Part shown: positions 39,106 to 50,008 of the stretch, one piece after another | Position numbering within the stretch: the first letter of the stretch is position 1 | Layout: each line of letters opens with the position of its first letter | Source of the DNA: Firmicutes bacterium HGW-Firmicutes-14 | GTDB taxonomy: Bacteria; Bacillota; Thermincolia; Thermincolales; UBA2595 | Assembly (NCBI GenBank): GCA_002840275.1 | Contig: PHAB01000001.1 | Location: forward strand, 186,001 to 250,000 | Direction: 5' to 3' | DNA: 64,000 nt | The notes under the pieces: generated by a model | Seen by the model: only the letters and a program-made list of their open reading frames with translations | Told to the model about the DNA's origin: nothing | Databases searched by the model: none | Made by a program: the position numbers and the translations under genes

Positions 39106-41802
39106 TTAACAGGCTTTCTCCACTTTAACTGCACAGACTTTTAGTTCGGGTATTTTGGCAATCGGGTCACGGGCGGAATTGGTCAGGAAGTTGACGGCAA
39201 CCTCAGAGAAATGGAATGACGTAAATACCATACCCTGAGGCACGCGGTCAGTAATGTCGGCCTTAGCGTTGATTGACCCGCGGCGGGAACTTACCTTAAC
39301 CATGTCGCCATTAGAGATACTCAGCCTGCAGGCATCGGCGGGGTTAATCTCGATGGATTCTTCACCGTAAATGGCAGACAGACCTTTCGCCCTGCGGCTC
39401 ATTGTGCCTGTGTGATAATGGTACAGACGGCGGCCCGTATTGAGGACAAAGGGGAATTCCTCGTCAGGCAGTTCAGCAGGCGGTTCAAAGTCCAAAGCTG
39501 TGAATTTGCCCAGACCACGGGAGAATTTGCCCGAATGAAGATACACGGTGCCCGGATGATCTGCTGTCGGACAGGGCCACTGTAAACTACCCTGTTCAAG
39601 ACGGGAATAAGAGATTCCTGCATACTGCGGGGTAACTTTTGCTATTTCGTCAAAAATGTCGGATGCACTGCAGTATTCATGAGGATATCCCATCCTGGTA
39701 AGGATTTCGGCTATAACTTCCCAGTCCGCCTTGCCTGCCAGGGGCTCAATTGCCTTGCGAACCCGCTGTACACGGCGTTCAGTATTGCTGAAGGTGCCGT
39801 CCTTTTCGGCGAAGCTTGCACCAGGCAGCACCACATCTGCCAGCATGGCGGTTTCAGTCAGGAAGAGGTCCTGAACTACCAGGAATTCCAGGTTTTCCAG
39901 GGACTGCTGGACATGGGATATATCAGGGTCACTGAGCATAGGGTTCTCACCCAGGATATACAGTGCCTTCAGATTCCCGTGATGAGCCTCATCCATCATC
40001 TCCCCGACGGTCAGGCCCACTTTGGCCGATTGTTCAAGCCCCCATGTGCTGGAGAATTTTTCTTTATTGTTCGAATCAGTCACAGCCTGGTATCCTGGAT
40101 AAACGTTAGGAAGTGCGCCCATATCACATGCGCCCTGAACGTTGTTCTGGCCCCTCAGGGGATTGACACCGCTGCTGGGTTTGCCAATCTGACCGGTCAG
40201 CATGGACAGGTTGGCAACCGCCAGGACGTTATGAGTGCCTGAGGTATGCTGGGTAATCCCCATCGTATAGAATATAGCGGCACTGGAGGCCTTGGCAAAC
40301 CCGCGGGCAACCTCCCGGATAACGTCTGCCGGTACACCGATGATACCGGCATAACTCTCAGGGGTAAAGTTGACCACGGCTTCCTTCAGTTCCTCGAATC
40401 CTTCGGTGCGGTTGGCCACAAATTCCTTATCATAGAGTCCTTCCTCAATAATTACATTACACATGACATTCATCAGCGGAATGTTAGCGCCGGGTTTCAG
40501 AGGAATGTGGATATCAGCCAGTTCAGCTATTTCAGTTTTCCTCGGATCCGCAACAATCAGGGTTGCCCCCCTGTTTTTGGCCTTCCGCATTTCAAGGCTG
40601 ATAATCGGGTGGGCTTCTGTGGTATTGGAACCGATTACAAACAGGTAATCACAATCCTTGATTTCTCCTATGGAGTTAGTCATTGCTCCACTACCAAATG
40701 CAGCTGCCAGACCGGCAACGGTAGAGGAGTGTCAGAGACGGGCGCAGTGGTCTATGTTGTTGGTACCAAAGGCCACCCGCGCCACTTTATTCATCAGGTA
40801 GTTTTCTTCATTGGTGCAGCGGGCGGAGGAAAGAACCGCCATCGCATCCCCACCGTGTTGTGCTTTGATTTCCTTCAGGCGAGAGGTTGTATATCTTAGG
40901 GCCTCCTCCCAGGAAACCTCCACAAAGTCACCGTCCTTCTTGATGAGAGGACTTGTCAGACGGTCCGGGCTATGGATAAAATCGAAACCGAAACGGCCTT
41001 TTACACAGAGGTGACGCCCATTAACCTCACTATCGGGGTTAGAAGTCACTCCTATTACTTTGCCAGCCTTGACATTGAGGTCAAAACCGCAGCCACAGCC
41101 GCAATACGGACATGTGGTCTTGACTTTTTTAACCTCCCATGGACGTGCCTTACCTATCATATTCTTTTCAACAATAGCGCCTACCGGACAAACTGCCACA
41201 CAGCTTCCGCAGCTTACACAACCGGATTCGTCTATTTCACCCAGCCCAACATCCAGGGCAGGGGCAACCTTTGTGCTAAACCCGCGGGAAGTAAAGTCAT
41301 AGACATTCCGGCCCACAACTTCCGCACATACACGGACACATTTCCCGCATAAAACACATTTGTTCATATCCCTGTACAGTACTGCACTGGATTCGTCCAC
41401 CGGGAAGTCGGTCTTATCCCCGATAAAAGCAGTATTTCTAATCCCATAACGGTATGCATAATCAGCCAGCCTGCAATCTCCGAACTTCTGGCAAGTCATG
41501 CAATCCTCGGGGTGGTTCGCCAGCAGCAGTTCCAGTATTGTGCGTCTTGCCTCAACTACGGCGTCTGATTCTGTTTCCACTTCCATGCCGTCGGTTACCG
41601 CTGTCACACATGACGGTGGAAGGTTTCGCCAGCCTTTGATTTCGACAACACAAATCCTGCAGGCGCCAGGCCGTGACAACTCCGGGTCATGACAGAAGGT
41701 AGGTATATCAATACCTGCCTGCTGCGCGGCTTCCAGAACCATGGTACCTGCGGGTACTGTCACCTTTTGACCGTTTATGGTTAGGGTTACAGTGTCTGCC
41801 AC
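39106..41802 (-). CDS. fdhA: NAD-linked formate dehydrogenase catalytic subunit, selenoprotein (Sec357)
   Basis: About 898 aa. A TGA at 40732-40734 splits it into two apparent ORFs, but the frame reads HCARL-U-HSSTVAGL, the Sec motif of Sec/Mo(W) formate dehydrogenases. Domains: plant-type [2Fe-2S] (1-80), NADH-dehydrogenase G-type cluster (80-120), two [4Fe-4S] sets (140-205), the molybdopterin-type cluster CPYCGCGC, the catalytic Mo/W-bis-MGD domain and a C-terminal dinucleotide-binding domain. I chose GTG 41802, because it gives the MAD start of its paralog and better spacing from GGAGG than TTG 41808. Last gene of the hnd-like operon. Confidence 0.95.
40691..40734 (-). promoter_or_regulatory. 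Bacterial SECIS of fdhA with the recoded TGA
   Basis: After the TGA (40732-40734), CTACC (minus) pairs with GGTAG, and TGCC pairs with GGCA around a GGTCT apical loop. Distance and GGTC loop match E. coli-type SECIS elements. Confidence 0.8.
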
Positions 41803-41874
41803 TTGCAATCTCCCTCCTTTGCTTGAATATTGGTGTTCGCTTTTCCCCCTTGTAGGGGTTTAAGATAATATCGG

Positions 41875-42810
41875 TTACTTTTTCAGTGAATTTATTTTTT
41901 CAACTATATTACCCAGGCCAAGGGCCTCTTCCCAGGACACCTCCACAAACTCGCCGTCCCTGTTGATAAAGGGAAGGTCTGTCCTGTCCGGGTTGTTCAT
42001 GAGGTCAGTACCCAGGCGGCCTTTCAGGCACAGGGGTCTTCCGGCAGAGGCTTCCTTGGCGGTAACGCCTACGACCCTGCCGTCCTTATAGTTAATAATG
42101 AATTTGCATCCTGACTCACAGAAGGTACATGTGACTTCCTTCTTTTCGAACTCCCATACCCTGCCCTTGCCCATCAATGTCTTGTCAGTCAGGGCTCCAA
42201 CCGGACATACCGTAACACAACGGTTGCAGTAAACACATGAGGAATCCTTTAATTCGGTATCCATAAAAGTCGCAATCCTTGTATTAAAACCCCTGGAGGC
42301 GAAATCAATGACATTTCTTTCCTCCACGGCCCTGCAGGTGGCTACACACTTACCGCAGAGAATACACTTGTTGAGGTCCCGGTAAATATATGGGTTGCTG
42401 TCATCTGCCTCCCAATTGTGTTTTTCACCCTCAAAAGGAGTGGGGCTCGTAACACCGTAACGGTATGCATAATCCTGAAGTTTACAGTTTCCGCTCTTCT
42501 CACAGGTCATGCAATCCAGCGGGTGGTTAGCCACCAGAAGTTCTAAAATGGTTTTCCTGGCTTCCACCACGGCGGGAGATTCGGTCTGAACTTCCATGCC
42601 GCCGGTTACCGCTGTCACACATGAAGGAGGCAGGTTCTTCCAGCCCTTGATTTCGACAACACAGATGCGGCAGGCACCGGGAGCAGTCAGGTCTTTCTCA
42701 TAGCAGAAAGTCGGGATGGAGATCCCAAGCATTTCTGCTGCTTCAAGCACGGTAATCCCTTCGGGAACAGAAACCTTTTGCCCGTTGATGGTCAAAGTTA
42801 TATCGGCCAT
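41875..42810 (-). CDS. NuoG-like iron-sulfur subunit, paralog of the FdhA N-terminus
   Basis: A 311-aa electron-transfer subunit. It matches FdhA closely from the start through SWEEAL: [2Fe-2S] (C-x-11-C-x-2-C around residue 40-50), the MTCEKSGNC cluster near 100, two [4Fe-4S] sets (140-200), and the CTFCESGCKF motif. It then ends after 16 unrelated residues with no catalytic domain. So it holds five Fe-S sites and no Mo/W site. It is 70 nt upstream of fdhA. Known bifurcating complexes keep similar small NuoG-like subunits. Confidence 0.93.
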   Translation of the reverse strand: MADITLTINGQKVSVPEGITVLEAAEMLGISIPTFCYEKDLTAPGACRICVVEIKGWKNLPPSCVTAVTGGMEVQTESPAVVEARKTILELLVANHPLDCMTCEKSGNCKLQDYAYRYGVTSPTPFEGEKHNWEADDSNPYIYRDLNKCILCGKCVATCRAVEERNVIDFASRGFNTRIATFMDTELKDSSCVYCNRCVTVCPVGALTDKTLMGKGRVWEFEKKEVTCTFCESGCKFIINYKDGRVVGVTAKEASAGRPLCLKGRLGTDLMNNPDRTDLPFINRDGEFVEVSWEEALGLGNIVEKINSLKK

Positions 42811-42824
42811 AAATTAGACCTCCT

Positions 42825-44618
42825 TTAACCCTTAACAATTGCGTCGAATTTGCATTTTTCGATACAGCTTCCACACTTGATGCACTTGGAAGTATCGATT
42901 TCGTGAGGCTCTTTCTTCTCTCCGGTAATTGCGCCGACCGGGCATACACGGGCACATGCGCCACAGCCTTTGCAGTTATCTGCCACAATTTTATATTCCA
43001 GCAAAGCGGAACAAACGCCTGCAGGACACTTCTTATCATTGATATGGGCTTCATATTCGTGCCGGAAATACCTGAGAGTAGCCAGAATCGGGTTGGGAGC
43101 AGTCTGGCCAAGGCCACACAGGGCGGTATTCTTGACAACACCACCCAGTCTTTCGAGGGTTGTGATGTCTTCAGGGACACCATTACCGTCACAGATTTTC
43201 TGGAGGATTTCCAGCATCCTCTTGGTACCTTCACGACAGGGGGTACACTTCCCGCACGATTCTTTCTGGGTGAAGTTCAGGAAGAACCTGGCCACATCCA
43301 CCATACAGGAAGTTTCATCCATTACCACAAGTCCGCCTGAACCCATCATAGCGCCAAGAGCTATCAGGGAATCATAATCAACAGGGGTATCAAGGTGCTG
43401 TTCAGGGATACATCCGCCGGACGGGCCGCCTATCTGAACAGCTTTGAACTTCTTATCATCCATAATTCCGCCGCCGATGTCAAAGATAATCTCCCTCAGG
43501 CTTATCCCCATCGGAACTTCCGCAAGACCGGTGTTCCTGAGTTTTCCGGTAAGGGCAAATACCTTGGTACCCTTGCTGTTTTCGGTACCCACACTGGCAA
43601 ACTTTTCGGCGCCGTGCAGGAAAATAACCGGTACGTTGGCATAGGTTTCAACGTTATTGATATTGGATGGCTTGGCCCACAGACCCTTGACTGCCGGGAA
43701 TGGCGGCCGGGGATTAGGCATACCGCGAGAACCTTCAATTGAAGCCATCAGAGCTGTTTCCTCACCGCAAACGAAAGCTCCGGCGCCTTCCTTAATATTG
43801 AGACGGCAGCTGAAACCGGTACCCATAATATTGTCACCCAAAAGACCGAGTTCTTCAGCCTGGGCAATAGCTACCCTGAGACGCTTGATGGCCAGCGGGT
43901 ACTCAGCCCGCACATAAATATATCCCTCATCGGCGCCTATGGCATAAGCTCCGATAAGCATACCTTCCAATACACTGTGGGGGTCACCTTCCAGCACACT
44001 CCGGTCCATAAATGCGCCCGGGTCTCCCTCGTCAGCATTACAAATAATATATTTTTTAGGTCCCGGAGACTTGGCAGCGAAACCCCATTTTAAACCGGTA
44101 GGAAACCCTCCGCCTCCACGGCCTCTCAGGCCTGATTTTTTCATTTCCTCAACAACCTGTTCGGGGGTCATAGATGTCAGCGCTTTGGCCAGGCCCTCAT
44201 AACCGTCCCTGGCTATATATTCCTGGATATGTTCCGGATCGATGTGCCCGCAGTTCCTGAGGGCAACCCTTTGCTGTTTGGCATAAAAAGCTATATCCCT
44301 GTATGAAGGCACCTGCTCTTCGGTAACCGGGGCCTTAAAGAGAAGCCGCTGAACCGTCCGCCCTTTCACCAGGTGCTCGGACACCAGTTCAGAAACATCT
44401 TCAACCTGGACACGGCAGTAGAACGTGCCTTCCGGATAGACTATAACAATAGGACCCATTTCACAGAACCCGTGACATCCGGTTTCAACGACTTTTACTT
44501 CTTTATCGAGTTTCTGTTTTACCAGTTCATCAGTGATAGCTTCCTGTATCTTCTTGGAACCTGAAGATACACAGCCGGTACCACCGCAAACCAGTACATG
44601 AGCGCGAAATAACTGCAT
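42825..44618 (-). CDS. NuoF-like flavoprotein subunit (NADH-binding)
   Basis: A 597-aa subunit. Residues 1-120 are a thioredoxin-like [2Fe-2S] domain (CGGTGCVSSG near the start, then CHGFCEMGP). Residues about 130-540 are NuoF-like, with the NADH and FMN loops GLRGRGGGGFPTGLKW and NADEGDPGAFMDR, and the [4Fe-4S] motif ESCGKCTPCREG. The C-terminal 60 residues are a double [4Fe-4S] ferredoxin. This is the HndC/HydB layout of bifurcating hydrogenases and formate dehydrogenases. Confidence 0.96.
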   Translation of the reverse strand: MQLFRAHVLVCGGTGCVSSGSKKIQEAITDELVKQKLDKEVKVVETGCHGFCEMGPIVIVYPEGTFYCRVQVEDVSELVSEHLVKGRTVQRLLFKAPVTEEQVPSYRDIAFYAKQQRVALRNCGHIDPEHIQEYIARDGYEGLAKALTSMTPEQVVEEMKKSGLRGRGGGGFPTGLKWGFAAKSPGPKKYIICNADEGDPGAFMDRSVLEGDPHSVLEGMLIGAYAIGADEGYIYVRAEYPLAIKRLRVAIAQAEELGLLGDNIMGTGFSCRLNIKEGAGAFVCGEETALMASIEGSRGMPNPRPPFPAVKGLWAKPSNINNVETYANVPVIFLHGAEKFASVGTENSKGTKVFALTGKLRNTGLAEVPMGISLREIIFDIGGGIMDDKKFKAVQIGGPSGGCIPEQHLDTPVDYDSLIALGAMMGSGGLVVMDETSCMVDVARFFLNFTQKESCGKCTPCREGTKRMLEILQKICDGNGVPEDITTLERLGGVVKNTALCGLGQTAPNPILATLRYFRHEYEAHINDKKCPAGVCSALLEYKIVADNCKGCGACARVCPVGAITGEKKEPHEIDTSKCIKCGSCIEKCKFDAIVKG

Positions 44619-44644
44619 GAATAATTCCCTCCTTCCTTCCCGAA

Positions 44645-45010
44645 TTAATCAAGCTTGGCTACAACCAGGTCTTCAACTATCTGGCCGTTAATTACATGTG
44701 AAGTCATAATCCGTGACACATCCTGGGGTTTTACATTGCCGTAAGTTATTCTTTTCTCTCCGGGGCGAACAATATCAACCAGGACTTCTTTTTCACACAT
44801 CCCGATACACCCGGTCTGGGTAACCCTGATATCAGCCATCTCCCTTTTGCTCAGTTCTTCCAATATGGCGCTCATTACCTCCCTGGCGCCGGCAGCGATA
44901 CCACAGGTTCCCATCCCGACGATTATTTCAACACCCTGTCCGGCACGGATGCCGGTCAGCGACTTTGCTTCTTCCCTTAAACGTTTAAGGTCTTCGGGGC
45001 TTTTAATCAT
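44645..45010 (-). CDS. Thioredoxin-like [2Fe-2S] ferredoxin subunit (HndB-like)
   Basis: A 121-aa subunit with four cysteines at the usual spacing: GMGTCGIAAG, then TGCIGMCEKE. It follows NuoE and precedes the NuoF-like gene. GGGGAGGTG is at the start. It is the small [2Fe-2S] protein seen in HndABCD-type complexes. Confidence 0.93.
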   Translation of the reverse strand: MIKSPEDLKRLREEAKSLTGIRAGQGVEIIVGMGTCGIAAGAREVMSAILEELSKREMADIRVTQTGCIGMCEKEVLVDIVRPGEKRITYGNVKPQDVSRIMTSHVINGQIVEDLVVAKLD

Positions 45011-45073
45011 CTAAAAGTCACCTCCCCTTTTTTCATGCTTTTCCTCTAAAAACTTCAATTGACCTGATAATAC

Positions 45074-45562
45074 CTATTTATACCGTTCCAGCAGGTCAGC
45101 AACAATATCAGGAGTCAACCGGCCATGAGTATCATCGTTCACCATCATAACCGGGGCCAAACCACAGGCGCCCAGGCACGCCACAGATTCAAAAGTATAC
45201 CTGAGGTCTTCGGTTGTTTCACCGTCCTTAATCCCTACAGCTTTGGTGACGGCTTCACTGATTTTGGCTCCCCCGCGAACATGACAGGCAGTTCCCAGAC
45301 AAACCCTGATAATATTTCGGCCGCGGGGATTCAGGTGAAACTGGGCATAAAAAGTAACGACCCCATAAATCTTGCTGAGAGGAATCTTCAACTGGGCGGA
45401 AATCTCCTTCAGCACTTCAGCAGGCAGATACCCGTAAATATCCTGGGCTGCCTGCAGAACAGGAATCAGAGCACCTTTTTTGCCCGCATATTTGGCAAGC
45501 ACCTTATCCAATTCTACGGCCTCTTTGGTTTTTGGTTCAGCATCACTAGCACATTGACACAT
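45074..45562 (-). CDS. NuoE-like [2Fe-2S] subunit (HndA-like)
   Basis: A 162-aa subunit of the NADH-module. It has the helical N-terminus, LKIPLSKIYGVVTFYAQF, and [2Fe-2S] ligands in CLGTACHVRGG and CLGACGLAPVM. GGAAGGAGGG precedes ATG 45562. It is the first gene of the operon, with a promoter about 40 nt upstream. Confidence 0.95.
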   Translation of the reverse strand: MCQCASDAEPKTKEAVELDKVLAKYAGKKGALIPVLQAAQDIYGYLPAEVLKEISAQLKIPLSKIYGVVTFYAQFHLNPRGRNIIRVCLGTACHVRGGAKISEAVTKAVGIKDGETTEDLRYTFESVACLGACGLAPVMMVNDDTHGRLTPDIVADLLERYK

Positions 45563-45626: not shown

Positions 45627-45643
45627 GGCTAACAGTAAGTAAT

Positions 45644-45883
45644 TTGACAAAAAGTCATTAATTCCTGCTGAAAAAGTCTCAATTTTTTGAATATAACAGG
45701 CATATAATGCAGGAAATACAGCATTATGCGGCGAAATAATCTCAATACTATAATTTTAACAATGGTTCCTTCTCTTTTTAACTTACCTTGGCGGGATGCC
45801 GTCATATGCAATGATATAGGTATTTGACAAATAGTAATAAAATCCTGCCTGAAAAGTCTTAATTTTGCGAATAATGACCGGCC
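45644..45883. repeat. 50-bp imperfect direct repeat in the divergent promoter region
   Basis: Copies at 45644-45693 and 45834-45883 start TTGACAAA and share AGT, TCCTGC, GAAAAGTC, AATTTT and GAATA, about 80% identical by eye, 190 bp apart. They lie in the gap between the formate dehydrogenase operon and the sensor cluster. Likely regulator sites or a local duplication. Confidence 0.75.
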
Positions 45884-45996: not shown

Positions 45997-46356
45997 TTGC
46001 ACCTGACAGAATTATCCGAGCTCCTGGAAGCCGACATCTATTGTGGCCAGGGAAATATGAAAAACATAATATCGTATGTTTGCGCAGGCGACCTGATGAG
46101 TGATATACTGGTTTTTTCCCAGCCTCATTCCCTTCTGCTGACCGGTCTCGTGAATATGCAGGTTGTCAGAACTGCGGAAATGCTGGATATTGCAGCAGTT
46201 GTGTTCATTCGGGGGAAAAAGCCTACAGAAGACATGCTCGAATTGGCAAAACAAAAAGGAATAGCATTGCTCACTACCAGGAAAACCATGTACCTGAGTT
46301 GCGGACTTCTTTATGAAGCCGGTCTGAAGAACGTACCGGTGCCTTTGGCGGAATGA
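45997..46356 (+). CDS. DRTGG-domain protein, first copy
   Basis: A 119-aa single DRTGG-like domain: CAGDLMSDILVF, the LLTGLVNMQVVRTAEML helix and IRGKKPTEDMLELAKQKGIALLTT. TTG 45997 has GAGGAGG 6 nt upstream. DRTGG domains are found beside CBS and PTA domains and probably bind a ligand. A second copy lies downstream of the hydrogenase-like gene. Confidence 0.88.
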   Translation: MHLTELSELLEADIYCGQGNMKNIISYVCAGDLMSDILVFSQPHSLLLTGLVNMQVVRTAEMLDIAAVVFIRGKKPTEDMLELAKQKGIALLTTRKTMYLSCGLLYEAGLKNVPVPLAE

Positions 46357-46406
46357 TTCATAAGTGAACTGCATCCTGTGCGGAAAAGCACGAAAGGGTG
46401 GGGCAA

Positions 46407-46850
46407 TTGGAGAGCAGAAAACAAATGTCTCAAGATATTACCCTTGAGTATCCAATTAAGGGTATGGATTTTGTATCCGCCGGCGAGGCTTCCAGTAATA
46501 TCAAACACACCCTGCAGCTCATCGGATTTTCTCCAGCCATTATCCGCCGGGCAGCCATAGCGGCATATGAGGCGGAAATGAACATTGTTATTCACGGGTC
46601 CGGCGGTGTCTTAAAGACCGTAATAACCCCGGAAAAGATAGAACTTACAGCTGAAGATTCCGGTCCGGGAATTCCCGATATCGACCTGGCCATGCAGGAA
46701 GGATATTCGACTGCTCCAGACCATATAAGGGAGATGGGCTTCGGAGCCGGAATGGGGCTGCCGAACATTCGAAACTGTTCGGATGAGTTTGTGATAGATT
46801 CCCAGGTGGGAAAAGGCACGATTGTCAAAGCCGTGATCTACCGTACATGA
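46407..46850 (+). CDS. RsbW/anti-sigma-type ATP-binding protein
   Basis: About 147 aa of a GHKL ATPase fold: the N-box AAYEAEMNIVIHG, the G1 box EDSGPGIPD, and the GMGLPNI G2 box. It is a stand-alone ATPase like the anti-sigma kinases RsbW or SpoIIAB, so it may bind or phosphorylate a partner. TTG 46407 is my pick; GTG 46398 and ATG 46425 are in frame. No STAS antagonist is next to it. Confidence 0.85.
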   Translation: MESRKQMSQDITLEYPIKGMDFVSAGEASSNIKHTLQLIGFSPAIIRRAAIAAYEAEMNIVIHGSGGVLKTVITPEKIELTAEDSGPGIPDIDLAMQEGYSTAPDHIREMGFGAGMGLPNIRNCSDEFVIDSQVGKGTIVKAVIYRT

Positions 46851-46866
46851 GTTTGGAGTGAACCTT

Positions 46867-48210
46867 ATGACCAAAAAGCATTTCCTATGTGAAATTGTAG
46901 ATGCTGAAAAGTGCAAAGGATGCACTAACTGTGTGAAGATTTGTCCAACAGAAGCCATCCGGGTCAGAAAAGGGACTGCCCGGACCATAGAAGAACGGTG
47001 CATTAATTGTGGCAACTGCATCAGGACGTGTCCTTATCATGCTAAAATAGCCATTACAGACCCCCTCGACCTGCGTCGGCTGAGGGAATTCAAATATACA
47101 ATAGCCTTGTGTTCACCGGTAATATATTCCCAGTTCCACCGCCTGATACCTCCGGGGAAAATCCTGAATGCCGTTAAATCCCTGGGGTTTGACGATGTTT
47201 TCCAGGAATCAATAGGAGCGGATTCATATGCCTTGGCGGTGAAAGCACTGCTGAATTCGCGGGAACTTAAGAAACCGGTTATCTCTTCGACTTGTCCGGC
47301 AGTCGTCAAATTGATCCAAGTCCGTTTCCCAAGTCTGATAGACAACCTGGCACCACTCTTGTCTCCCATGGAAATAGCGGCCCGGCTGGCCCGGGAACAG
47401 GTTAGCAGAAACAAGAACCTATCTGAAGACGAGATTGGCATTTTTATGATTACCCCATGCACCGCAAAAGCCACTGCTATTAAACACCCAATAGGTATGG
47501 AAAAGTCTCAAATAGACGGGGCAATTTCATTGATTCACCTGTATGGCAATATTCTCAACACCCTGGGCGCTGCCAGTGATGACCCTGGTCTGGCCAAAGC
47601 CTCCGGCCAGGCTATCGGCTGGGCCCGGTCCGGTGGGGAAACTATAACCGTCAATGCCCGTAATTACCTGGTAGCAGACGGCCTCCATAATGTAATCAGT
47701 ATTTTTGAAGAGGCTGAAATGGGGCATTTCCAGGATGTGGACTATATCGAATGCCTGGTCTGCCACGGCGGGTGTGTGGGCGGCCCCCTGACTATAGAGA
47801 ATCCCTTTATTGCCCGGATAAGAACAAGAAATCTGGTAAAAACCCTTCCCAATACCCTTTCCGGGGAAACCCTTGATAAGATTAATAAACGTTACCGGGC
47901 CGGCTATTTCCACATGGATAAGCCGATAGAAGCCCATAACGTAATGCATTTAAACAAGGATATAACCAAGGCCATTCAGCTGGTCAGCAAGGCCGAAGAA
48001 ATCTTGAAGGAACTGCCCGGTCTGGATTGCTGTTCATGCGGTTCCCCCAGCTGCCGGGCTCTGGCGGAGGATATTTCTCAGGGATATGCGTCGGTAACGG
48101 ACTGTATCTTCAAGTTGCTGGAAACTATCCAGGACTCCGCCCAGCACATGCTGGACCTTATTCAGAAAGAACGGCGCATTACTAAAAAGGGGAAGGAGAC
48201 CAAAAAATGA
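46867..48210 (+). CDS. [FeFe]-hydrogenase-like sensor protein
   Basis: A 447-aa protein. Residues 1-60 are a 2x[4Fe-4S] ferredoxin (C16/19/22/26 and C45/48/51/55). Residues about 70-360 are a hydrogenase large-subunit C-terminal domain with ITPCTAK and ECLVCHGGCVGGP, but its first H-cluster motif reads STCPA, with one Cys where active enzymes have TSCCP. Residues about 380-430 carry a CCSCGSPSCRALAEDI [4Fe-4S] motif as in sensory hydrogenases. It overlaps the next DRTGG gene by 4 nt. It resembles HydS/HfsB-type regulators; catalysis is not proven. Confidence 0.9.
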   Translation: MTKKHFLCEIVDAEKCKGCTNCVKICPTEAIRVRKGTARTIEERCINCGNCIRTCPYHAKIAITDPLDLRRLREFKYTIALCSPVIYSQFHRLIPPGKILNAVKSLGFDDVFQESIGADSYALAVKALLNSRELKKPVISSTCPAVVKLIQVRFPSLIDNLAPLLSPMEIAARLAREQVSRNKNLSEDEIGIFMITPCTAKATAIKHPIGMEKSQIDGAISLIHLYGNILNTLGAASDDPGLAKASGQAIGWARSGGETITVNARNYLVADGLHNVISIFEEAEMGHFQDVDYIECLVCHGGCVGGPLTIENPFIARIRTRNLVKTLPNTLSGETLDKINKRYRAGYFHMDKPIEAHNVMHLNKDITKAIQLVSKAEEILKELPGLDCCSCGSPSCRALAEDISQGYASVTDCIFKLLETIQDSAQHMLDLIQKERRITKKGKETKK

Positions 48211-48551
48211 AAGTTTCCGATATCTTAAATGAACTGGAAGCCGAAGTAAGGTGTGGTGAGACTTCTCTTGACAGGGATATCAGCTGGTGTTATTGTTCCG
48301 ACCTGTTAAGTGATGTTATGGCCAACGCCCAAAAAGACAGTATATGGATTACCCTGCAGACCCATCCCAACATTGTGGCAGTCGCTTCCCTGCTGGGTCT
48401 GTCGGCCATCCTCATCTCAAGGGGCGCTGAGCCTGACCCGGAAACCCTGAACAAAGCAGCCCAGGAAAACATTCCCGTACTGACTACCAAACTGCCAACT
48501 TTTGAGGCTGCCGGCAGGCTTTTTATGCTGCTGAATCAACAGAGTTCTTAG
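48207..48551 (+). CDS. DRTGG-domain protein, second copy
   Basis: A 114-aa DRTGG-like domain (CSDLLSDVMANAQKDSIWITLQ, ILISRGAEPDPETLNKAAQENIPVLTT). It is clearly related to the copy at 45997, with the same SDLLSDV and IPVLTTK segments. It overlaps the hydrogenase-like gene by 4 nt, so it is translationally coupled to the sensor. Confidence 0.88.
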   Translation: MKVSDILNELEAEVRCGETSLDRDISWCYCSDLLSDVMANAQKDSIWITLQTHPNIVAVASLLGLSAILISRGAEPDPETLNKAAQENIPVLTTKLPTFEAAGRLFMLLNQQSS

Positions 48552-48581
48552 CGTCAGGTGGAGTTCGGACTCCATCTGACG
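48552..48581. repeat. Hairpin between the DRTGG and PHP genes
   Basis: A 13-bp stem from CGTCAGGTGGAGT to ACTCCATCTGACG with a TCGG loop. The next 100 bp holds two more small hairpins (CCGCTT/AAGCGG, CAGC/GCTG) like an IS605 end. No T tract follows, so it is not a classical terminator. Confidence 0.5.
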
Positions 48582-48688
48582 GTTAGAAATCGTTATCCAG
48601 GAGCTTAGCGCCGCTTATCCCCCGTTGAAGCGGTGGGAATCTTAACAGCGGTTAGCTGTCGGACAAATAAATTGAAGGTGGGAATGTA

Positions 48689-49975
48689 ATGCAGCCCTAT
48701 AAGATGGATTTGCATATTCACACTGCCCTCTCACCATGTGCAGAACAGGAAATGACCCCGCCGAAAATCATCCATGCAGCCAGGGCCAAAGGCCTGCATA
48801 TGATTGCCGTAACAGACCACAACACAGCAGAGAACGCAGGTGCAACCATAAAGGCCGCCGAAGGGAGCGGCATTTTTGTTATCCCCGGGATGGAAGTCCA
48901 GACCAGGGAAGAAGTTCACCTGGTTTGCCTTTTCCCCGCCCTGGATACCTGCCTCTCCTGGCAGGAACAGGTCTACCGGAGCCTCCCTCCCCAGGATAAC
49001 CGTCCGGAAGTGTTCGGTTCCCAATATATAATGGACAGTAAAGGCAGAATAACAGGCGAACTGGGCCGGATGCTCCTGATGTCCACGGAAATGTCTGTTG
49101 AGGATGTGGCTTCCAGGGTTACCGCCCTGGGCGGGATCTGCATCCCTGCCCATGTTGACCGTCCATCATACAGCCTCATGGGCACTCTGGGTTTTATCCC
49201 GGCGGGGCTGCCAGTATCTGCGGTCGAGCTGTCAAAACACATATCGGCAGATGAAGCGGCACTGTTGCTGCCAACCCTGGCCGGTTATACCTTTTTAAGT
49301 TCGTCTGACGCCCATTGTCTGACAGACCTGGGGGCCAACCCAACGATTTTGTATTCGGATAAACCTCCCGATTTCGAAGAATTAAAGAAAGCCCTGGGCG
49401 GGGTATCCGGAAGAAAGGTGATGGCAAAAATGAAAGACCTGTCGATGCATATTATAGATATCCTTCAAAACTCCATAGAAGCAGGCGCTTCCGATGTCAG
49501 ACTGGAAATTGCTGAAGACCTGGCTTCTGACAGTTTCTCTATCAAAATCTCTGATAACGGCCGGGGTATGGATGAAGAACTTTTGGCCAAGGTAATTGAC
49601 CCCTTCTTCACCACCCGCAAAACGAGGCGCATAGGATTGGGGCTGCCCCTGCTCAAGGCCGCAGCCGAACGTTGTGAAGGAAAGATGATAATAGAATCTG
49701 CTCCTGGGAAAGGCACGACTACTGTGGCCGAATTCCGCCATAGTCATATAGACCGCGCACCACTGGGAAATATTATTGATACAATAGTTAATCTTATAGT
49801 CGGCCATCCGGACCTTGATTTCTATTTTTCCCACCAAATCGGCGATAAAAAGCTAATTCTTGATACAAAGGAATTAAGGGAACAGCTGGAAGACGTCCCC
49901 CTGAACAACCCGGCGGTGATCAACTGGATAAAGAATTACCTGACTGAGAATTATGGGGAAATAAATAATGGATAA
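48689..49975 (+). CDS. PHP phosphoesterase fused to a histidine-kinase-type ATPase
   Basis: A 428-aa protein. Residues 1-235 are a PHP domain: MDLHIHTALSPC, AVTDHNTAEN, GMEVQT, PAHVDRPSYS and SSSDAH give the metal-binding set. Residues about 250-360 are a GHKL ATPase: HIIDILQNSIEAGA (N box), DNGRGMDEE (G1), FFTTRKTRRIGLGLPLLK (F and G2) and GKGT. There is no His-phosphotransfer helix, so kinase activity on a His is unlikely. The fusion links phosphatase-like and ATPase parts in one signalling protein. Last gene of the cluster. Confidence 0.9.
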   Translation: MQPYKMDLHIHTALSPCAEQEMTPPKIIHAARAKGLHMIAVTDHNTAENAGATIKAAEGSGIFVIPGMEVQTREEVHLVCLFPALDTCLSWQEQVYRSLPPQDNRPEVFGSQYIMDSKGRITGELGRMLLMSTEMSVEDVASRVTALGGICIPAHVDRPSYSLMGTLGFIPAGLPVSAVELSKHISADEAALLLPTLAGYTFLSSSDAHCLTDLGANPTILYSDKPPDFEELKKALGGVSGRKVMAKMKDLSMHIIDILQNSIEAGASDVRLEIAEDLASDSFSIKISDNGRGMDEELLAKVIDPFFTTRKTRRIGLGLPLLKAAAERCEGKMIIESAPGKGTTTVAEFRHSHIDRAPLGNIIDTIVNLIVGHPDLDFYFSHQIGDKKLILDTKELREQLEDVPLNNPAVINWIKNYLTENYGEINNG

Positions 49976-49977
49976 AA

Positions 49978-50008
49978 CCTGGGCCTAGTGTGGCCCAGGC
50001 TTTTTTTT
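49978..50008 (+). terminator. Intrinsic terminator of the sensor cluster
   Basis: CCTGGGCC / GGCCCAGG, 8-bp perfect stem with a 6-nt loop, then C and eight Ts. Confidence 0.95.

Follow-up and report, generated by a model that had tools for sequence, protein, structure and literature searches.

What does a hydrogenase-like protein sense when its gene stands among those of an ATPase, two DRTGG proteins and a PHP phosphoesterase, opposite a formate dehydrogenase operon, and through which partners does it report? The signalling route of the group D "sensory" hydrogenases was left open in the papers on TamHydS, and the answer bears on how fluxes of H2 and formate are regulated during fermentation and syntrophic growth. 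We analyzed such a locus in a 64-kb stretch of Firmicutes bacterium HGW-Firmicutes-14 (PHAB01000001.1, 186,001 to 250,000 forward), referred to here as the window; all coordinates are positions within it.

The five plus-strand ORFs were all found where the initial annotation had placed them, and its description of a packed group with one terminator, divergent from a formate dehydrogenase operon on the minus strand, stands (Table 1). Its statement that the genes are joined by 4-nt overlaps or short gaps holds only in part: there is one 4-nt overlap, between HYD and DRTGG2 (48207-48210), and a gap of 137 nt between DRTGG2 and the PHP-ATPase, occupied by a genomic repeat that is absent from relatives, in which this gap measures -1 to 19 nt. 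In the facing operon, hylA encodes a HydA-like subunit and the fdhF frame is broken by an in-frame TGA (40732-40734) in a selenocysteine context with a stem-loop downstream; fdhF of relatives shows the same 48-nt break, and the TGA is probably a selenocysteine codon.

Table 1. Features of the module and of the facing operon (window coordinates)
Feature	Position	Strand	Remarks
Facing operon nuoE-hndB-nuoF-hylA-fdhF, bifurcating-type formate dehydrogenase	39106..45562	-	
52-bp conserved repeat, copy 1	45642..45693	.	fdh-operon side
52-bp conserved repeat, copy 2	45822..45873	.	DRTGG1 side
DRTGG1	45997..46356	+	TTG start after AGGAGG; orthologs open the module in most loci
SpoIIAB/RsbW-like ATPase	46398..46850	+	Start at 46398 (GTG) or 46425 (ATG)
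HYD, group D [FeFe]-hydrogenase-like	46867..48210	+	Two N-terminal [4Fe-4S], H-domain, C-terminal Cx2Cx4Cx16C
DRTGG2	48207..48551	+	Pfam DRTGG; HYD-DRTGG2 fusions in L058 and L061
Repeat element inserted between DRTGG2 and PHP-ATPase	48552..48688	.	Outside the conserved module; 16 matches in own genome
PHP phosphoesterase-GHKL ATPase fusion	48689..49975	+	Conserved C-terminal extension HIDRxPLG
Intrinsic terminator	49978..49999	+	

Class of the hydrogenase-like protein

Pfam matches in HYD comprise Fe_hyd_lg_C, two Fer4 and a C-terminal FeS domain (PF04060), while the same search detected no PAS domain in the window protein. The C-terminal Fe-S motif and the changed first H-cluster motif to which the initial annotation had drawn attention are both there, the former as C391/394/399/416 and the latter as SSTCP in place of TSCCP. 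All four H-cluster cysteines (C146, C201, C302 and C306) are present, and the lysine of the diiron pocket (K204) is retained. The position of C299 in CpI is taken by T145 and that of M353 by T199; among HYD orthologs, A, S or T is found at the former and S or T (A in two cases) at the latter. The glutamates of the group D proton path are also kept, E261 and E298 corresponding to E252 and E289 of TamHydS. In a phylogenetic tree from which TamHydS itself is absent, HYD falls inside a 98/97 branch with the homolog from Thermoanaerobacter wiegelii, apart from group A HydA, HYD-kinase and sigma54-HYD proteins. The T. wiegelii homolog matches the TamHydS numbering at all residues checked (C20, A137, E252, E289, D378-C379 and D403-C404).

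On every sequence feature tested, HYD is a member of the group D [FeFe] class, the marks of which are known from TamHydS (PMC8163306). TamHydS (group D, M2e, from Thermoanaerobacter mathranii; PMC8163306, PMC10407848, PMC13104023) and HYD have in common the lack of C299 and of PAS domains, S or T instead of M353, the Cx2Cx4Cx16C motif, an Asp before two of the C-terminal cysteines and the equivalents of E252 and E289. They differ in that the window copy faces formate dehydrogenase rather than HydABC and its own genome has no HydEFG. HydS and HfsB, which the initial annotation named as sensory [FeFe]-hydrogenases, belong to another class, the PAS-bearing group C proteins (PMC8163306, PMC11837493); HYD has no PAS domain and groups with the T. 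wiegelii group D protein in the tree. Group C proteins (TmHydS, R. albus HydS and HfsB) do share with HYD the N-terminal Fe-S clusters, the C-terminal Fe-S cluster and an H-domain mostly devoid of C299, and have been proposed as sensors (PMC10055695, PMC11837493), but they carry PAS domains and, in the case of Hfs, have a serine-phosphatase-like partner.

The T. wiegelii homolog of TamHydS sits in the same module as HYD. At that locus (L140, 9212-13553), the neighbors are an ATPase and a DRTGG protein, with no AraC domain by Pfam, and the published label "AraC regulator" for the neighbor of TamHydS may, judging from these domains, be an annotation error.

Conserved partners and replacement of the putative sensor

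A stand-alone RsbW-like ATPase, two DRTGG proteins and a PHP-ATPase in one ORF had been proposed as the remaining products, and Pfam and TIGR profiles agreed. DRTGG2 exceeds the PF07085 cut-off (39.7 bits), while DRTGG1 lies slightly under it (22.9 versus 25.2 bits) and its T. wiegelii ortholog clears it (29.6 bits). Invariant Ser/Thr residues are S42 and T56 of DRTGG1 and S35 and T49 of DRTGG2. The second gene matches HATPase_c/HATPase_c_2 and has SpoIIAB as its nearest family (TIGR01925, E = 6e-13, under the equivalog cut-off), and its kinase residues E58, N62, D87 and G116/G118/G120 are invariant in 75 of 75 orthologs. The fifth gene combines PHP and HATPase_c, which are encoded by two separate genes outside the window family. 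Its metal ligands (H9, H11, D43, H44, E69, H77, H155, D207 and H209) fit the HxH, DH, E, H, H, DxH pattern and are found in all complete sequences.

In a sample of 398 genomes across the phylum, 170 had PHP/ATPase matches, and 80 loci spread over many families were read with this gene pair as the anchor. Most of these loci show the order DRTGG1, kinase, HYD, DRTGG2, PHP, NuoE, ATPase, HndB, NuoF, HydA, and the module lies most often within an electron-bifurcating hydrogenase (HydABC) operon. HYD is present in about 70 of the 80. With HYD as the anchor, in named genomes, DRTGG and kinase genes were adjacent in 77/80 loci and PHP in 70/80, several of those without the full set being cut by contig ends; the genomes showing this picture include T. 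wiegelii, Christensenella, Sporomusaceae and Syntrophorhabdales MAGs. The neighborhood comparison suggested by the initial annotation thus showed the genes to co-occur in Clostridia, well outside the window, beside hydrogenase or formate dehydrogenase operons. The window family (L039-L043) departs from the usual layout: its module stands opposite the formate dehydrogenase operon, and its PHP and ATPase are joined in a single protein. In another family, f27, the two are separate, 0 to 3 nt apart, and a formate dehydrogenase operon is ca. 7 kb off in the same divergent arrangement. The coincidence of the module with PF02906 (169/170 genomes) was dropped as evidence, since HYD itself matches this profile and the comparison is circular.

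Fusions occur between DRTGG1 and the kinase (11 loci), between HYD and DRTGG2 (2 loci) and between PHP and ATPase (the window family), and the members of these pairs probably touch each other. The model of a DRTGG1-kinase fusion (pLDDT of 92, pTM of 0.55) matches the folds of SpoIIAB, RsbW and the DRTGG protein AF1212 and also resembles the DRTGG domain of the Clostridium perfringens CBS-pyrophosphatase; given the low pTM, no interface can be read from it. For the PHP-ATPase, segment 159-248 of the model is unreliable, because alignments that mixed PHP and ATPase sequences set the PHP domain boundary at the wrong end point.

Five loci lack HYD and have a kinase fused to two tandem CBS domains; four further loci have neither kinase nor HYD. 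A tree of DRTGG2, PHP and ATPase places the CBS type in at least two positions, one of them beside loci of the same family that do have HYD. The replacement of HYD by CBS domains argues that HYD is the input part and the rest of the module the signalling core. Both CBS and DRTGG domains are known to sense adenine nucleotides, and the redox repressor Rex senses NADH; rex, identified by its domains, lies directly upstream of the module in L095, L055 and L049. HYD-less versions (these three plus L090, L051 and L083) lie near folC-like, rex, maf, radC and mreB-type genes.

Group D and a sensory role for it have been put forward in earlier papers. In the literature searched we found neither the complete set of partners nor the exchangeable sensor nor the version at formate dehydrogenase that lacks maturases, and no description of a DRTGG-hydrogenase module was met in a search that reached few subscription journals.

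H2 or redox state

The alternative that retains most weight, albeit rather unlikely in our view, is a true H2 sensor, in which HYD would carry a full H-cluster and inform the kinase of H2, along the lines suggested for TamHydS. TamHydS binds the diiron site when this is supplied in synthetic form, and it catalyzes H2 turnover (PMC8163306). The four cubane cysteines, K204, E261 and E298 are all retained in the window protein, and HYD of the window family keeps every H-cluster residue, as one would expect if its H2 site were functional, which speaks against a redox-only reading. Along similar lines, 127 of the 170 module genomes in the phylum sample have HydG. The window genome, however, is 99.96% complete and has no HydE, HydF or HydG above the family cut-offs (best scores of 109, 100 and 194 bits against 255, 326 and 312, respectively), nor do the relatives G002, G005, G006 and G007; a fifth, G003, of the same family as the window organism, has all three. 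Because these maturases were not detected in its genome, the H2 sensing considered in the initial annotation is doubtful for the window organism, and a redox signal is more likely. This argument uses only absences from whole clades: the lack of HydG in single MAGs (43 of the 170 module genomes) was set aside, as incomplete bins explain some of it.

A second line of evidence against H2 comes from family f27, in which the module persists in the absence of HydEFG or any other [FeFe] hydrogenase. Four f27 genomes lack HydEFG and have one PF02906 match apiece, whose score agrees with the module HYD rather than with a catalytic hydrogenase. Glutamine replaces the second-motif lysine in the three HYD sequences of f27 that were read and nowhere else among 67 sequences, with all cubane cysteines kept. 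This lysine corresponds to K358 of CpI, a residue in contact with a cyanide ligand. HYD can therefore be kept without a diiron site, and redox sensing is likelier than H2 sensing for the f27 protein. Replacement of E261 by Q was rejected as a mark of H-cluster loss, as it was also found in two HydG-bearing genomes (L050 and L052). Natural versions lacking either the sensor or the pocket lysine make the choice between H2 and redox testable in tractable hosts of the Thermoanaerobacter type.

Two other hydrogenase-derived genes were seen in the window genome. Contig C39 (L212, 7921-9693) encodes a canonical HydA of group A, its TSCCP, MPCxxK and CPGGC motifs all intact, yet HydE, HydF and HydG were undetected; G002 has a comparable HydA match, likewise with no recognizable HydE, HydF or HydG. 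Since a canonical HydA and an intact HYD pocket persist in the window family, maturation by an unrecognized route is conceivable. On contig C36 (L213, 2013-4214), beside a [NiFe]-hydrogenase operon, an H-domain with a C-terminal Fe-S motif is fused to a sigma-54 activator and a Fis-type HTH, providing this genome with a second hydrogenase-derived regulator.

A possible signalling route and a candidate control element

We give about even odds (ca. 0.5) to the five genes being a cytoplasmic redox-signalling module. The signalling role suggested by the initial annotation is favored by the fusions, the intact kinase and PHP sites and the replacement of HYD by a CBS-bearing kinase. In such a module, HYD would be the input, its Fe-S clusters reporting the electron pressure of the ferredoxin/formate/H2 pool, and the DRTGG proteins, as phosphorylation substrates or relays, would pass its state on to the SpoIIAB-like ATPase, a probable protein kinase. 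The opposing or output enzyme would probably be the PHP-ATPase fusion, an ATP-gated, metal-dependent phosphoesterase, and the target would be the bifurcating enzyme encoded alongside, formate dehydrogenase here and mostly HydABC elsewhere. Control of the facing operon is likewise something that we infer. A wider reading is put forward more tentatively: an undescribed redox-signalling module, widespread in Firmicutes, whose core of DRTGG proteins, SpoIIAB-like kinase and PHP/ATPase pair would accept interchangeable inputs, a CBS pair or an Fe-S protein of hydrogenase descent, the latter having lost its diiron site and serving as a plain Fe-S redox sensor in lineages linked to formate dehydrogenase. 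Either way, the conserved partner set gives the signalling of group D proteins concrete candidates.

Known systems resemble parts of this arrangement. The module ATPase shares its fold and the kinase residues of the Bergerat site with the anti-sigma kinases SpoIIAB and RsbW, but those systems have a sigma factor and a STAS antagonist, while the module has neither and has DRTGG partners instead. The CBS-DRTGG region of the C. perfringens pyrophosphatase (PDB 3l2b and 3l31) has the DRTGG fold in common with the module and combines CBS with DRTGG, as the HYD-less versions do; in the module, however, the DRTGG proteins stand alone and CBS is found on the kinase, in HYD-less versions only.

The module is co-directional with hydABC in most lineages, which also fits a factor for the assembly, repair or activity of NuoEF-type bifurcating complexes, in which the GHKL ATPases would be chaperones and HYD would take part through Fe-S or electron transfer. 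The interleaving with hydCB subunit genes (PHP-NuoE-ATPase-HndB-NuoF) and the resemblance of the second ATPase to MutL N-terminal folds agree with such a factor, which we nevertheless regard as improbable: HYD-less versions adjoin rex/maf/radC/mreB-type genes and have no neighboring bifurcating complex, and the SpoIIAB-type kinase site of the first ATPase is intact. A partner switch, as originally proposed, taken here in its classical form with the kinase as an anti-sigma factor and the DRTGG proteins in place of the STAS antagonist, is very improbable and serves as an analogy, because no transcription factor, sigma factor, STAS or DNA-binding protein is found among the five genes and no sigma gene belongs to the conserved module; the SpoIIAB-like sequence and fold, the DRTGG1-kinase fusions and the sigma-H-like promoter motifs upstream of 12/80 modules of other families (0.4 expected in shuffles) fit it, but such a motif is no proof that the kinase binds that sigma factor, and the fusion model shows no readable interface.

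The 52-bp repeat was not assigned to a known regulator: it is long for a simple operator, and its minus strand (AGGAWW...GTCAAAT) resembles a sigma-H promoter but misses the GAAT of the -10 element. The core pattern was never found in the reversed control. Of nine genomes of the family, six have exactly two copies of it, one has a single copy and two have none, namely G002, which has no module, and G003, which has diverged copies seen by alignment only. This pair of direct repeats between the divergent operons is co-inherited with the module in the window family, and the repeat is a candidate control element.
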